A stretch of 64,000 nt of DNA, taken from NCBI RefSeq assembly GCF_003063295.1, contig NZ_MUXF01000007.1:1-64000 (forward strand). Direction: 5' to 3'. This DNA comes from Arcobacter lacus. GTDB taxonomy: Bacteria > Campylobacterota > Campylobacteria > Campylobacterales > Arcobacteraceae. Made by a program: the position numbers and the translations under genes. Positions 30,066 through 54,442 of this stretch are shown piece after piece (the first letter of the stretch is position 1; every line of letters begins with the position of its first letter). The notes beneath the pieces were generated by a model. That model did no database searches. It was given only the letters and a program-made list of their open reading frames with translations, and was not told where the DNA came from.

Positions 30066-31817
30066 ATGATTAGTGCGTTATGGAATGGAGTTTCAGGTAT
30101 TTCAAACTATGATAAAGGAATTGCTGTTGAATCAAATAATATAGCAAACTCGAGCACTACAGCATATAAACTAAATGAAACAACTTTTTCAGATATGCTA
30201 TATACTAATGGTGGTTATGGAAAAGGTGTAACAACTCAAAGTATATCAAAACAGTTTGCCCAAGGGAATATTAATTCTTCAGGTGGAACATTGGATATGG
30301 CAATAGATGGAACAGGTTTTTTTATAGTAAGTGACAAAAATGGTGGAATTTACTATACAAGAGCTGGAGATTTTCAGCAAACAAAAGATGGTTGGCTACA
30401 AACTCAAGATGGAATGAATGTTTTAGGACTAGTTCCTCAAAGTAAATTAATCTCTTCTACAAATCCACAAGATACAATGTTCACAACAGAATATTCGAAA
30501 AATATTGTTTCTACAAATATAAATGATGGAAATGGTACGATTAGTAATATAAATGCCAAAACAACTGACTATACAAAAACAGCAACTACAGATGATTCTT
30601 CTTTAAAAGGTGATAACTATAAGTCTGCACAAGCAAAAATAAACGATATTGATGCTTTGATTACTGATTATTTAAATAAATTGAATAAGTATGATGGAAC
30701 ACAAAATTCAGTTGCATCTGTTTCTCAAATTTCGACAGTTGATTTCTCTTCACAATTTTCAAATCTTTTAAGCGAAGGTAATAGTATTTCTCTTAATATT
30801 GATGGAAAGAGTTTTAGTGTTTCTTTTAACAATGATGGTGTTGCATCAGAGCAGGATATGCAAGATTTATATAATTTCTTAAGTACACAAGGAAAATCAA
30901 GTTTTGGTTTAGTTGATCCTTCTACTATTCCTACTCAGACTCAAGTAGATGATTTATATTTAGCAATTCCCGATCAAGCGATTATTGATGCAATGCCAAC
31001 TTCTACAGCAGCAGAAATAGCAGCAAAAGCAGCTGCACAAGCTCAAAGAGACCAAGCAGTAACTGATTATCAAACAGCTTATCAAGCAAGAGCAGATGCT
31101 CAAACTTCTTATAATAGTGCTAAAAATACAATTTCAGCTTATAAAGATTTAGCAGATAAAATCTCTAATACTGCAGGATACACTGCGAGTGTAAAAGATG
31201 GCGTTTTAACTGTTGAAAGTTTAGTTGCTGGTAATTCATTTAATATAACAAATGCAAAAATAAATGATACAGGAGTAAATTCTACTATAACACAAGAAGC
31301 AGTAACTGGTTCTGGAATGGCTATGGTTGACAGTGCTAAAGATGCTTTAAAAGAAGCTGTTGAAGCTGCAGGTGGAAAATTTTTAGAGATAACAAATGTT
31401 ATGGAATATGCTAACTTAGGAAGTTATGGAACAAATGAATTAAATTTAAGATTAGATACATTAGGTTTAGTTGAAGGTGATTTTGGAGAAGTAAGTATTT
31501 CTGATGATGGATTTATTTTTGTATCGAGTGGCGATAACAAATTTTTAGTTGGAAGAGTTAGTACAGCAGCGTTTAAAAATGAACAAGGCTTAGAAGCTGT
31601 TGGAGATAATAAATTTGCTGCAACAAAATCATCAGGTACTGCTTACAATGCAGATGGTATGAATACGATAAAAGAGAAATCTCTTGAAAGATCAAATGTA
31701 AGCTATTCAGCTTCTTTAACATCTTTAATGGTTTATCAAAGAGCTTATGAGGCGAGTTCAAAATCTATTACGACTTCTGATGATTTTTTGAAAACAGCCA
31801 TAGACATGGTAAAATAG
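30066..31817 (+). CDS. flgE: Flagellar hook protein FlgE (first copy)
   Basis: A 583-residue hook protein. It starts MISALWNGVSGISNYDKGIA, has SNNIANSSTTAYKL, LDMAIDGTGFFIV and the C-terminal SLTSLMVYQRAYEASSK. Between the conserved D0/D1 parts there is a large insert beginning with INDIDALITDYLNKLNKYDG (about 192-212) and an Ala/Gln-rich helical stretch (about 315-360). It directly follows flgD. A second hook gene follows after a structured 102-nt gap. Confidence 0.92.
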   Translation: MISALWNGVSGISNYDKGIAVESNNIANSSTTAYKLNETTFSDMLYTNGGYGKGVTTQSISKQFAQGNINSSGGTLDMAIDGTGFFIVSDKNGGIYYTRAGDFQQTKDGWLQTQDGMNVLGLVPQSKLISSTNPQDTMFTTEYSKNIVSTNINDGNGTISNINAKTTDYTKTATTDDSSLKGDNYKSAQAKINDIDALITDYLNKLNKYDGTQNSVASVSQISTVDFSSQFSNLLSEGNSISLNIDGKSFSVSFNNDGVASEQDMQDLYNFLSTQGKSSFGLVDPSTIPTQTQVDDLYLAIPDQAIIDAMPTSTAAEIAAKAAAQAQRDQAVTDYQTAYQARADAQTSYNSAKNTISAYKDLADKISNTAGYTASVKDGVLTVESLVAGNSFNITNAKINDTGVNSTITQEAVTGSGMAMVDSAKDALKEAVEAAGGKFLEITNVMEYANLGSYGTNELNLRLDTLGLVEGDFGEVSISDDGFIFVSSGDNKFLVGRVSTAAFKNEQGLEAVGDNKFAATKSSGTAYNADGMNTIKEKSLERSNVSYSASLTSLMVYQRAYEASSKSITTSDDFLKTAIDMVK

Positions 31818-31837
31818 AGTAAATATAAAATAAAAAT

Positions 31838-31906
31838 ATAATGTTCATACTTTAGTACAAAGGTGTGTATTAAGGTATGAACATTATGTTCATCACAACC
31901 TTAATA
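31838..31906 (+). promoter_or_regulatory. Mutually exclusive hairpins between the two hook genes
   Basis: Hairpin A pairs 31838-31858 with 31867-31887: 13 perfect outer pairs (ATAATGTTCATAC arm) plus 8 inner pairs with two G-T, 8-base loop. Hairpin B pairs 31868-31876 (TATTAAGGT) with 31898-31906 (ACCTTAATA), with further pairing inside between ATGAACAT and ATGTTCAT. B uses the 3' arm of A, so only one can form. B ends one base before the ribosome-binding site AAAGGA (31908-31913) of the second hook gene. TATAAT at 31837-31842 could be a promoter whose transcript lacks the 5' arm of A. Confidence 0.65.
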
Positions 31907-31919
31907 TAAAGGAAAAATT

Positions 31920-34151
31920 ATGATAGGCGCATTATGGACTGGAGTTGCAGGACTTGCTTCTCAAACAACAGCAATAGACAATGAATCAAATAACGTAGCA
32001 AATGTTAATACGGTTGGATATAAAGCTTCAAGAATATCTTTTGCAGATCAAATTTATCAAAATCAAATAGGTAAAGGATCATATGTACAAGATGCAGAGA
32101 AACTTTTTACACAAGGTTCAATGAAAATAACTGGTGCAAGCTATGATATAGCATTAAAAGGTGATGGATTTTTTACAGTAATAAATCAAAATACTTTAGG
32201 GACAGCAGAGACTTTTTATACAAGAGCTGGAAACTTTAGAATGGGAACAAGTGGAACTTTGCAAACAGCAGATGGATATGAAGTTCAAGGTTGGGCAATG
32301 AGCTCAATAGATGAAAAAAATGATGTTGTAAGTACAAATTCAAATGTATCAAGATTTACAACTGATTTTACAAAAAATGTAGGATCATCTATTATCAAAC
32401 ATGGTGATTTTATTGAAACAGTTGCAGCTAAAACTACAAATTATGATGAAACAGCTGCTTCTGATTCAACAGCAGTATTCACAGGAGCTGGACAGAAAAC
32501 AAAAGCTTCAAAATTAAAAGATATAGATTTAGCTATTACAAATTATAATGCTTGGTTAACAAAATATCAAGATGATCCAGATGCTTCTTCTTCTGGTTCA
32601 ACTGCACAAGTATCTCAAGTAAACTTTAAAACAGGATTACCACCAACATCAATTATTGGAAAAGAGGGTGACTCAATAGAAGTTACAATTGATGGTAATA
32701 CTTATAGCCAAAACTTTGTAGTAACTAAAACAACAACTAGTTATAGACAAGATATATGGGATTCATTGAGTGCAGCTGAAAGAACACAACATGGTTTGGT
32801 TGATCCAGCATCAATAGTTTCAGGTTCAGCTACAGAAGAAGAAGAAATAGCTGCTTACGATAAAGTAGCAGGAAAAATTGAGACATATAAAGCTTTAGCA
32901 GATAAAATATCAAATTCTGGGCCTGGTGGAATGGTAGCTTATTTAGCTAAAAATACATCAAATCCAACAGCAGATGTTTTAGATCCTAATGGTACTTATG
33001 AAATGTCAACAGAGATTTCAGATATGCTTCAAGGAGTTATTCAAATAGAGTCTTTAATTCCTGGAACAGAATTCAAAATAACTTCGGTTAGTGAGTTACA
33101 AGGTGGGACTAAAACAACAGTAAAAGGAAGTTATCAATCAACTGCAACAGCAGTAGCAGGTTCTGGGAAAGCTGCACTTGAAGAGGCGAGAGATGCTTTA
33201 TCAAGATTAGTTACAGGGAATCAACAAAGTGTTTATACAACTCAAGATTTATATGGTAATGCAGATTCTACAACATCAGGGAGGGTATATAATTTTAATA
33301 TAACTGTATATGATAAAGATTTGGGATATGATATTCCTGTACCAAATGATGGAAATGTCCCTCCCCAGGCATATCCTATTACTTTTGGACCAAATGCTTC
33401 AATAGATGATATTGTTACTGCTATAAACAATAATACATCACCATCAGGACCACAATTAGGTGATTATATAACAGCAAAAAATGTAAATGGATATTTAGTT
33501 ATTGAAACAAATGATGCAAATTATGATGTTGAATTTGATGCCGCATTAACATATACGAATCCAGCCGGAGATTGGATAAGAGATCCTTCGGATCCAGCTG
33601 TTCCACCTGCAGCACCTACTCTACCTTTAATTCAGGATCCAACTACTATCGTAACAGATGATACTTTAATTGAAGTTAATCCAGACTACTCAGGAAGAAA
33701 AGGTGCAGGTGCGGAATTTATGGAAATTACTACTAGAATAGATCAAACAACTACTCAAAGTAGTTTGCAGTTAAGACTTGATAAATTGGGAATTTCTGAT
33801 AGTCAATTTGGTTCTTTCTCTGTAGATGAAACAGGACTTGTAACTATAACTGAAGGTGGAGTTGAGTATGCTGTTGGACAGGTTTCAATTGCAAGATTTA
33901 CAAATAATCAAGGACTTTTAGCAGTTGGAGATAATAATTTTCAAGCTACACAAGAATCTGGAAAAGCAATTTATAGTATAAATAATAATAATACATCAGG
34001 TATGCAAGGACAAACACTTGAATTAAGTGAAGCAGATTTAAGTGAAAGTTTAGTAAACTTAATGGTATTTCAAAGAGCTTTTGAAGCAAATGCAAAATCA
34101 ATTACAACTGCTGATGAAATGCTTACAACTTTAATTAACTTAAAAAGATAA
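31920..34151 (+). CDS. flgE2: Second flagellar hook protein, FlgE paralogue
   Basis: A 743-residue hook protein starting MIGALWTGVAGLASQTTAID, with SNNVANVNTVGYKASRISFADQ, YDIALKGDGFFTVI and the C-terminal SLVNLMVFQRAFEANAKSIT. It shares an insert motif LKDIDLAITNYNAWLTKY (about 199-217) with the first copy but adds about 160 residues, including a proline-rich stretch near 555-575 (DPAVPPAAPTLPLIQDP) with locally higher GC. Longer FlgE (700-870 residues) is normal in Campylobacter. Which copy forms the main hook cannot be told. Confidence 0.9.
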   Translation: MIGALWTGVAGLASQTTAIDNESNNVANVNTVGYKASRISFADQIYQNQIGKGSYVQDAEKLFTQGSMKITGASYDIALKGDGFFTVINQNTLGTAETFYTRAGNFRMGTSGTLQTADGYEVQGWAMSSIDEKNDVVSTNSNVSRFTTDFTKNVGSSIIKHGDFIETVAAKTTNYDETAASDSTAVFTGAGQKTKASKLKDIDLAITNYNAWLTKYQDDPDASSSGSTAQVSQVNFKTGLPPTSIIGKEGDSIEVTIDGNTYSQNFVVTKTTTSYRQDIWDSLSAAERTQHGLVDPASIVSGSATEEEEIAAYDKVAGKIETYKALADKISNSGPGGMVAYLAKNTSNPTADVLDPNGTYEMSTEISDMLQGVIQIESLIPGTEFKITSVSELQGGTKTTVKGSYQSTATAVAGSGKAALEEARDALSRLVTGNQQSVYTTQDLYGNADSTTSGRVYNFNITVYDKDLGYDIPVPNDGNVPPQAYPITFGPNASIDDIVTAINNNTSPSGPQLGDYITAKNVNGYLVIETNDANYDVEFDAALTYTNPAGDWIRDPSDPAVPPAAPTLPLIQDPTTIVTDDTLIEVNPDYSGRKGAGAEFMEITTRIDQTTTQSSLQLRLDKLGISDSQFGSFSVDETGLVTITEGGVEYAVGQVSIARFTNNQGLLAVGDNNFQATQESGKAIYSINNNNTSGMQGQTLELSEADLSESLVNLMVFQRAFEANAKSITTADEMLTTLINLKR

Positions 34152-54402: not shown

Positions 54403-54442
54403 AGACATTTATATATCAAGATATCTTGATATATAAATGTCT
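54403..54442 (+). promoter_or_regulatory. 40-bp perfect palindrome, probable ArsR operator
   Basis: The left half 54403-54422 and right half 54423-54442 are exact reverse complements with no spacer; the centre reads ATCAAGATATCTTGAT. It lies 38 bases before arsC and covers the -35 of the predicted promoter. Small ArsR repressors bind such AT-rich dyads, and an arsR gene is in the same operon, so autoregulation is the obvious reading. Confidence 0.75.

Follow-up and report, generated by a model that had tools for sequence, protein, structure and literature searches.

Two hook-type genes stand in tandem within a long run of flagellar genes in Arcobacter lacus, which raises the question of whether the RNA between them sets the output of the second relative to that of the first. 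In the window, as we call the whole 64,000-nt stretch of DNA that was analysed, flgE1 (30066..31817, + strand, 583 aa) is the upstream partner and flgE2 (31920..34151, + strand, 743 aa) the downstream one. Both products match the FlgE/F/G (FlgEFG) family and share 42% identity. FlgE2 finds matches at E<=1e-60 in 87 of 104 Arcobacteraceae genomes, and a search of 17 genomes of other families returned no relative at E<=1e-25. The gap between the two genes spans 31818-31919; the gaps around flgD, directly upstream, measure only 11 and 15 nt.

Alternative hairpins in the flgE1-flgE2 gap

The original prediction held that the gap could fold into either of two hairpins, A or B, which exclude each other. 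Folding of 31818-31930 gives a minimum free energy (MFE) of -32.1 kcal/mol, whereas 200 shuffled sequences average -12.9 and none reaches that value (z = -7.3), and after GC correction the gap ranks second in structure among the 100-nt stretches of the whole 64-kb window. The strongest structure of the window lies elsewhere. It is a perfect 40-nt palindrome at 54403-54442 (AGACATTTATATATCAAGATATCTTGATATATAAATGTCT), conserved in many genomes of the genus and located just 5' of a low-molecular-weight phosphatase-type (arsenate reductase-like) gene and an ArsP-type permease gene, and it looks like an ordinary ArsR-type operator.

All coordinates given in the original prediction proved correct. 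Hairpin A is present as described, with 31838-31858 pairing to 31867-31887 through 21 pairs including two G-U. It is in fact longer than first noted, since the 5' arm (31835..31859, + strand) and the 3' arm (31866..31890, + strand) form a 25-bp stem closed by a 6-nt loop. Hairpin B had been placed at 31868-31876 with 31898-31906, plus inner pairs; this outer part is a perfect 9-bp match, and the inner pairing of 31877-31883 with 31887-31893 proves to be the conserved core of the hairpin. The stretch 31868-31883 is common to both structures, so A and B are mutually exclusive, and B ends one base 5' of AAAGGA (31908-31913, + strand), the Shine-Dalgarno sequence of flgE2. The MFE structure further contains a small hairpin C, absent from the prediction, in which CCTT (31899..31902) pairs with AAGG (31909..31912), the core of the Shine-Dalgarno sequence, and thus covers it. 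In the window the outer part of B competes with C, as the 3' side of that part (31898..31906, + strand) overlaps the 5' arm of C.

Three short + strand segments describe the exchange. We call seg1 (31842..31848) the portion at the foot of the 5' arm of A that pairs with seg2; seg2 (31877..31883) is the shared segment, bound to seg1 in A or to seg3 in B; and seg3 (31887..31893) is a second copy of seg1 that forms B with seg2. Since the top of A persists in either state, the exchange is short and confined to the foot of A. In the full-length RNA of the window A is about 5.6 kcal/mol more stable than B, and B is therefore predicted to form there only when the 5' arm is absent or made unavailable.

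Conservation and covariation in Arcobacteraceae

The FlgE2 protein served as query for homologous loci across genus and family, and from every genome the DNA preceding the gene was extracted. After setting aside loci with an upstream gene other than flgE1 or with another type of gap, 74 loci from 14 genera of Arcobacteraceae were retained. Named relatives, by which the family is identified, include Aliarcobacter, Arcobacter, Poseidonibacter, Malaciobacter and Halarcobacter. A different long hairpin (CCTTATGATTAAA...TTTAATCATAAAGG), whose 3' arm holds the Shine-Dalgarno sequence, occupies the gap between flgD and a second hook gene at L028, L031 and L120-L124; these are second-locus hook genes of several genomes, with 90% of cells paired and weak covariation across nine sequences.

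The 74 loci share one layout, consisting of seg1, the top of A, seg2, seg3, hairpin C and the start codon. The stem of hairpin A comprises 16-25 bp, and its loop usually has 3-4 nt. Between genera the sequences of seg2 and seg3 differ and their pairing is kept: they read ATGAAC/GTTCAT in genus g1, GTGAAC/GTTCAC in g6, TTGAACA/TGTTTAA in g33, ATAAACA/TGTTTAT in g29 and TTGAATA/TATTCAA in g40. The spacing of the two segments varies between loci, as expected of a loop, and the conserved columns are mostly the paired segments, the Shine-Dalgarno sequence and the start of flgE2. Only the window has the outer half of B (31868-31876 with 31898-31906), which is missing from the nearest relative (G003) and the rest. 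A hairpin stands at the place of C in most of the family, in another register in other genera; statistically, its presence throughout the family is modestly supported (permutation p 0.036).

Several loci depart from this layout in detail. At two loci of genus g7 (L107 and L108) the pairing of seg2 and seg3 is weak or shifted a few bases downstream (CATTTAAAATT with AATTTTAAATG at L108), possibly a re-registered hairpin B. Three loci of g2 (L074, L094 and L095) have gaps of 175-215 nt that retain seg1, seg2 and seg3, much of the extra sequence lying before seg1 and between seg3 and the Shine-Dalgarno sequence. In five genomes of g1 (G007, G009, G027, G026 and G014; loci L006, L007, L011, L012 and L013) a further repeat, AGTATAAAC, directly follows the flgE1 stop codon; it precedes seg1 and can pair with it, giving a chain of competing hairpins.

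Pair statistics were computed on an alignment of 32 diverse loci. For A, 96.3% of cells are paired as against 35-51% when the partner is slid, changes on both sides occur at 17 of the 20 aligned pairs, and the covariation score is 0.451 compared with 0.177 after shuffling; RNAalifold, unprompted, also predicts A. For B, 95.7% of cells are paired (27-50% when slid) and 19 cells are changed on both sides, compared with 6.7 in shuffles, while a count of further pair types shows no excess over shuffles in the same 32 loci. The duplex of seg2 and seg3 outperforms shuffled sequences at p<0.05 in 69 of 74 loci, and genus-median p values combine to 4e-13 (Fisher). Moreover, seg2 and seg3 pair better within their own genus than when swapped between genera (permutation p 5e-5).

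The clearest sign of a shared segment is found at the first base of seg2. The seg1/seg2/seg3 triples at this position read U-A-U in 35 loci, A-U-A in 24 and C-G-C in 4 (63 of 74 in all), and so a single base of seg2 follows two partners. The third base of seg2 forms a G-U wobble with seg1 in 59 of the 74 loci and a G-C pair with seg3 in 44, indicating that seg3 is often the better partner. Among the aligned pairs G-U greatly exceeds A-C (84 vs 4 in A and 18 vs 0 in B), which suggests a constraint on the + strand RNA. Mapped on a tree of the FlgE1 C-terminus, changes in seg2 number four at position 0, two at position 5 and one at position 6, and independent pairs number two to three, with none discordant. 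Given so few independent changes, the case for B rests equally on preserved complementarity and on repeated covariation. Both stems are thus kept by compensatory change in relatives, where a lack of conservation would have spoken against the original prediction. A conserved RNA structure in the flgE1-flgE2 gap is, in our judgement, virtually certain to be real, and both of its pairings, A and B, are very probably under selection.

Across the family the two states are modelled to lie near balance. Relative to the full A, the state combining the top of A with B differs in free energy by +1.1 kcal/mol at the median, with quartiles of -0.9 and +3.2 (+5.6 in the window, favouring A), and the modelled equilibrium means are 0.74 for A vs 0.19 for B. 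Blocking seg1 in the model raises the median probability of B to 0.94. In most of the family, an RNA starting at seg2 folds into hairpin B, usually with C behind it. RNA lacking the 5' arm, which the original prediction expected to fold B, should do so in nearly all loci. Loss of that arm is the one modelled trigger producing B almost throughout, irrespective of how far away the stop codon lies. It had further been supposed that B would present flgE2 differently to the ribosome. This holds for the window, in which modelled accessibility of the Shine-Dalgarno sequence rises from 0.49 to 0.86, and does not extend to the 74 loci (medians 0.35 vs 0.37). The rise in the window is explained by competition, as the outer half of B captures the 5' arm of C. 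The outer pairing responsible (TATTAAGGT/ACCTTAATA) is absent even from G003. Sequestration of the Shine-Dalgarno sequence as the switched output was therefore rejected beyond the window.

A further structure is possible where flgE1 ends, since its final codons can base-pair across the stop with the first part of the gap. This pairing reaches at least 6 bp in 58 of 70 loci and overlaps seg1 in 51 of 70; the window has no hairpin across its flgE1 stop codon. The pairing is genus-specific (-8.6 kcal/mol with the genus' own sequence vs -5.6 when swapped, permutation p 5e-5) and beats shuffles at p<0.05 in 31 of 70 loci, against none of 70 for control coding bases located 30-60 nt upstream, which retain a small own-genus advantage (-4.7 vs -4.2).

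Competing readings of the exchange

We consider it rather probable that the gap RNA controls flgE2 relative to flgE1. The best explanation overall, and one that we put forward tentatively, is a processing switch that would separate the two hook messages and provide flgE2 with a 5' hairpin. In the intact message A would form and offer its near-perfect stem of 16-25 bp as an RNase III-type substrate. Near-perfect stems of this kind are plausible substrates of RNase III, and the genome of the window carries genes for RNase III and for an RNase J-type protein; a long stem alone, however, does not prove an RNase III site. A cut in A, or loss of its 5' arm by other means, would free seg2 from seg1 and allow it to pair with seg3. 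The flgE2 message so produced would begin with hairpins B and C, and in most relatives, though not in the window, the flgE1 message would end near its own stop-codon hairpin. The two hook messages of one operon might then decay and be translated at different rates, with unequal amounts of the two hook proteins as the outcome. Selective RNA processing and stabilisation in operons provides a precedent for such unequal output (PMC10667835, PMC5927463). Counting against a processing switch are the 5.6 kcal/mol by which A is favoured in the window, the lack of a hairpin over the flgE1 stop codon there, the small number of independent events behind the covariation of B, and the shifted or weak pairing in g7.

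The main rival is a translational switch driven by the ribosome. Here, a ribosome finishing flgE1, on its last codons or its stop, would remove seg1, or the hairpin hiding seg1, and the resulting choice of A or B would set initiation on flgE2, in the manner of translational attenuators or of structure-mediated translational coupling. The ability of the flgE1 end to pair with seg1 in 51 of 70 loci agrees with this proposal, as does the freeing of the Shine-Dalgarno sequence by B in the window (0.49 to 0.86). With a ribosome placed on the flgE1 stop codon, the model also yields B in 26 of 70 loci, essentially those in which A lies within about 5 nt of the stop; in the 29 loci where this distance is at most 5 nt, B rises from 0.27 to 0.94. 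However, where A lies farther from the stop (41 loci, among them the window and its closest relatives), the modelled ribosome has no effect, and we rejected it as a universal trigger on that ground. In nearly all loci, moreover, the two states leave the Shine-Dalgarno sequence equally accessible (medians 0.35 and 0.37), and coupling is weakened by RNA structure immediately behind a stop codon (PMC12548453). On this evidence a translational switch appears somewhat doubtful. A leader peptide initiated from a start codon in seg2 was considered separately and rejected, since the small frame has no conserved length or stop.

Alternatively, the structure could be static, with A decoupling the translation of flgE2 from that of flgE1 or stabilising the upstream message, and with B tolerated rather than used. 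A is much the stronger element and mostly dominates at equilibrium (0.74 vs 0.19), and RNA structure after a stop codon is reviewed as reducing translational coupling (PMC12548453), as an insulator would. Yet seg3 tracks seg2 across genera (p 5e-5) and remains complementary to it in 95.7% of cells, which would be unexpected of an unused copy, and we think a purely static role unlikely.

The original prediction had invoked a local promoter, with TATAAT at 31837..31842 (+ strand) as the -10 box of a short transcript that, without the 5' arm, must fold B. The hexamer exists and such a transcript would indeed fold B, but the promoter itself finds no support: TATAAT occurs in 7 of 74 gaps and stands just before seg1 in the window only, G003 has ATATAGTG at the same place, and an automatic promoter scan did not list the + strand TATAAT. 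We regard this origin of B as very unlikely. Repeated inverted hexamers (GTTCAT...ATGAAC...GTTCAT) could in principle form a DNA operator bound by a regulator, a reading made highly improbable by the varying spacing of the half-sites, by sequences that differ between genera while their pairing is kept, and by the tolerance of G-U but not A-C, a sign of + strand RNA. Two other candidates were discarded, a repeat element or mobile palindrome, because the sequence is single-copy in the genome, and an intrinsic terminator, because the core of A is followed by TTATGTTCAT with no U run and no + strand terminator-like site.

These comparisons bear on the trigger of a processing switch. A trigger serving the whole family must free seg2 everywhere; the stop-codon ribosome and the local promoter both fail to do so, and cleavage in A is thus the remaining general route. 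Based on the modelled folding, we consider processing a possible trigger of the exchange.

Comparison with known systems

A covariance model of the gap RNA has one match in the window's own genome, and in 299 genomes of the order its convincing matches are confined to Arcobacteraceae. Two weak matches fall outside, one in a ribosomal protein operon, where rplK begins directly downstream of nusG, and one in G310 (E 0.0096); beside hook genes outside Arcobacteraceae the gap RNA was not found. At gathering score Rfam has no match in the window, its sub-threshold matches being weak, mostly to microRNA models, with E 0.009 or worse. The main text of an intergenic-region RNA search in Arcobacter sp. 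L contains no flagellar or hook motif (PMC6429828). The gap RNA shows neither a conserved unpaired aptamer motif nor a match to a known class, as would be looked for in a ligand riboswitch.

In erm-type translational attenuators at least three segments precede a ribosome-binding site; their pairings exclude one another, and the middle segment chooses between partners. The analogy of such attenuators is noted in a review (PMC12548453). The gap RNA resembles them in its alternating and exclusive 1:2 and 2:3 pairings. In contrast, the 2:3 pairing frees the Shine-Dalgarno sequence in the window only and not in nearly all loci, and the upstream gene is a full hook gene, with no short leader peptide or stalling drug. 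Nor is there a trigger by a ribosome on an upstream leader peptide; the modelled ribosome on the flgE1 stop works in 26 of 70 loci.

Selective RNA processing and stabilisation is exemplified by cggR-gapA and papBA. The flgE1-flgE2 gap shares with operons of this type (PMC10667835, PMC5927463) hairpins between cistrons, a possible need for unequal products and a candidate processing site. Hairpins able to bound the processed messages are present, namely A, B and C together with the hairpin at the flgE1 stop (58 of 70 loci). Unlike in those operons, the stem here exchanges strands and re-forms a 5' hairpin from a built-in copy, and we infer the cleavage. As in the structure-mediated translational coupling of rpmI-rplT and of phage f1 VII-IX (PMC12548453), RNA structure in or near the gap links neighbouring genes. 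However, two conserved alternative structures are found here instead of one inhibitory hairpin, and the ribosome acts as a modelled trigger in 26 of 70 loci.

In Campylobacter, CsrA/FliW exerts post-transcriptional control over flagellar messages. The element described here would likewise act post-transcriptionally on flagellar genes in a related family, but as an RNA in cis, CsrA being reported lost in Arcobacter (PMC9321776). Arcobacter also lacks RpoN, FliA, FlgM and FlgRS, with no DNA-binding regulators near its flagellar loci (PMC9321776), and the authors of the first Arcobacter genome paper proposed that flagella are controlled there in a completely novel way (PMC2147049). The gap RNA may be part of the control of hook production in a family without the usual flagellar regulators, and the two-state RNA between the hook genes offers a concrete, testable candidate for RNA-level flagellar control in Arcobacteraceae. 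We tentatively propose that it could represent a new class of cis-acting RNA of this family, an intercistronic strand-exchange element carrying a copy of its own 5' arm, which would determine how much of each hook protein is made from a shared message in a lineage whose transcriptional flagellar hierarchy has been lost. In kind, a cis-acting intercistronic RNA with alternative hairpins is known; the built-in copy of the 5' arm and the family-wide triple covariation are unusual, and they make the gap a clear case of a single RNA segment held by two partners.
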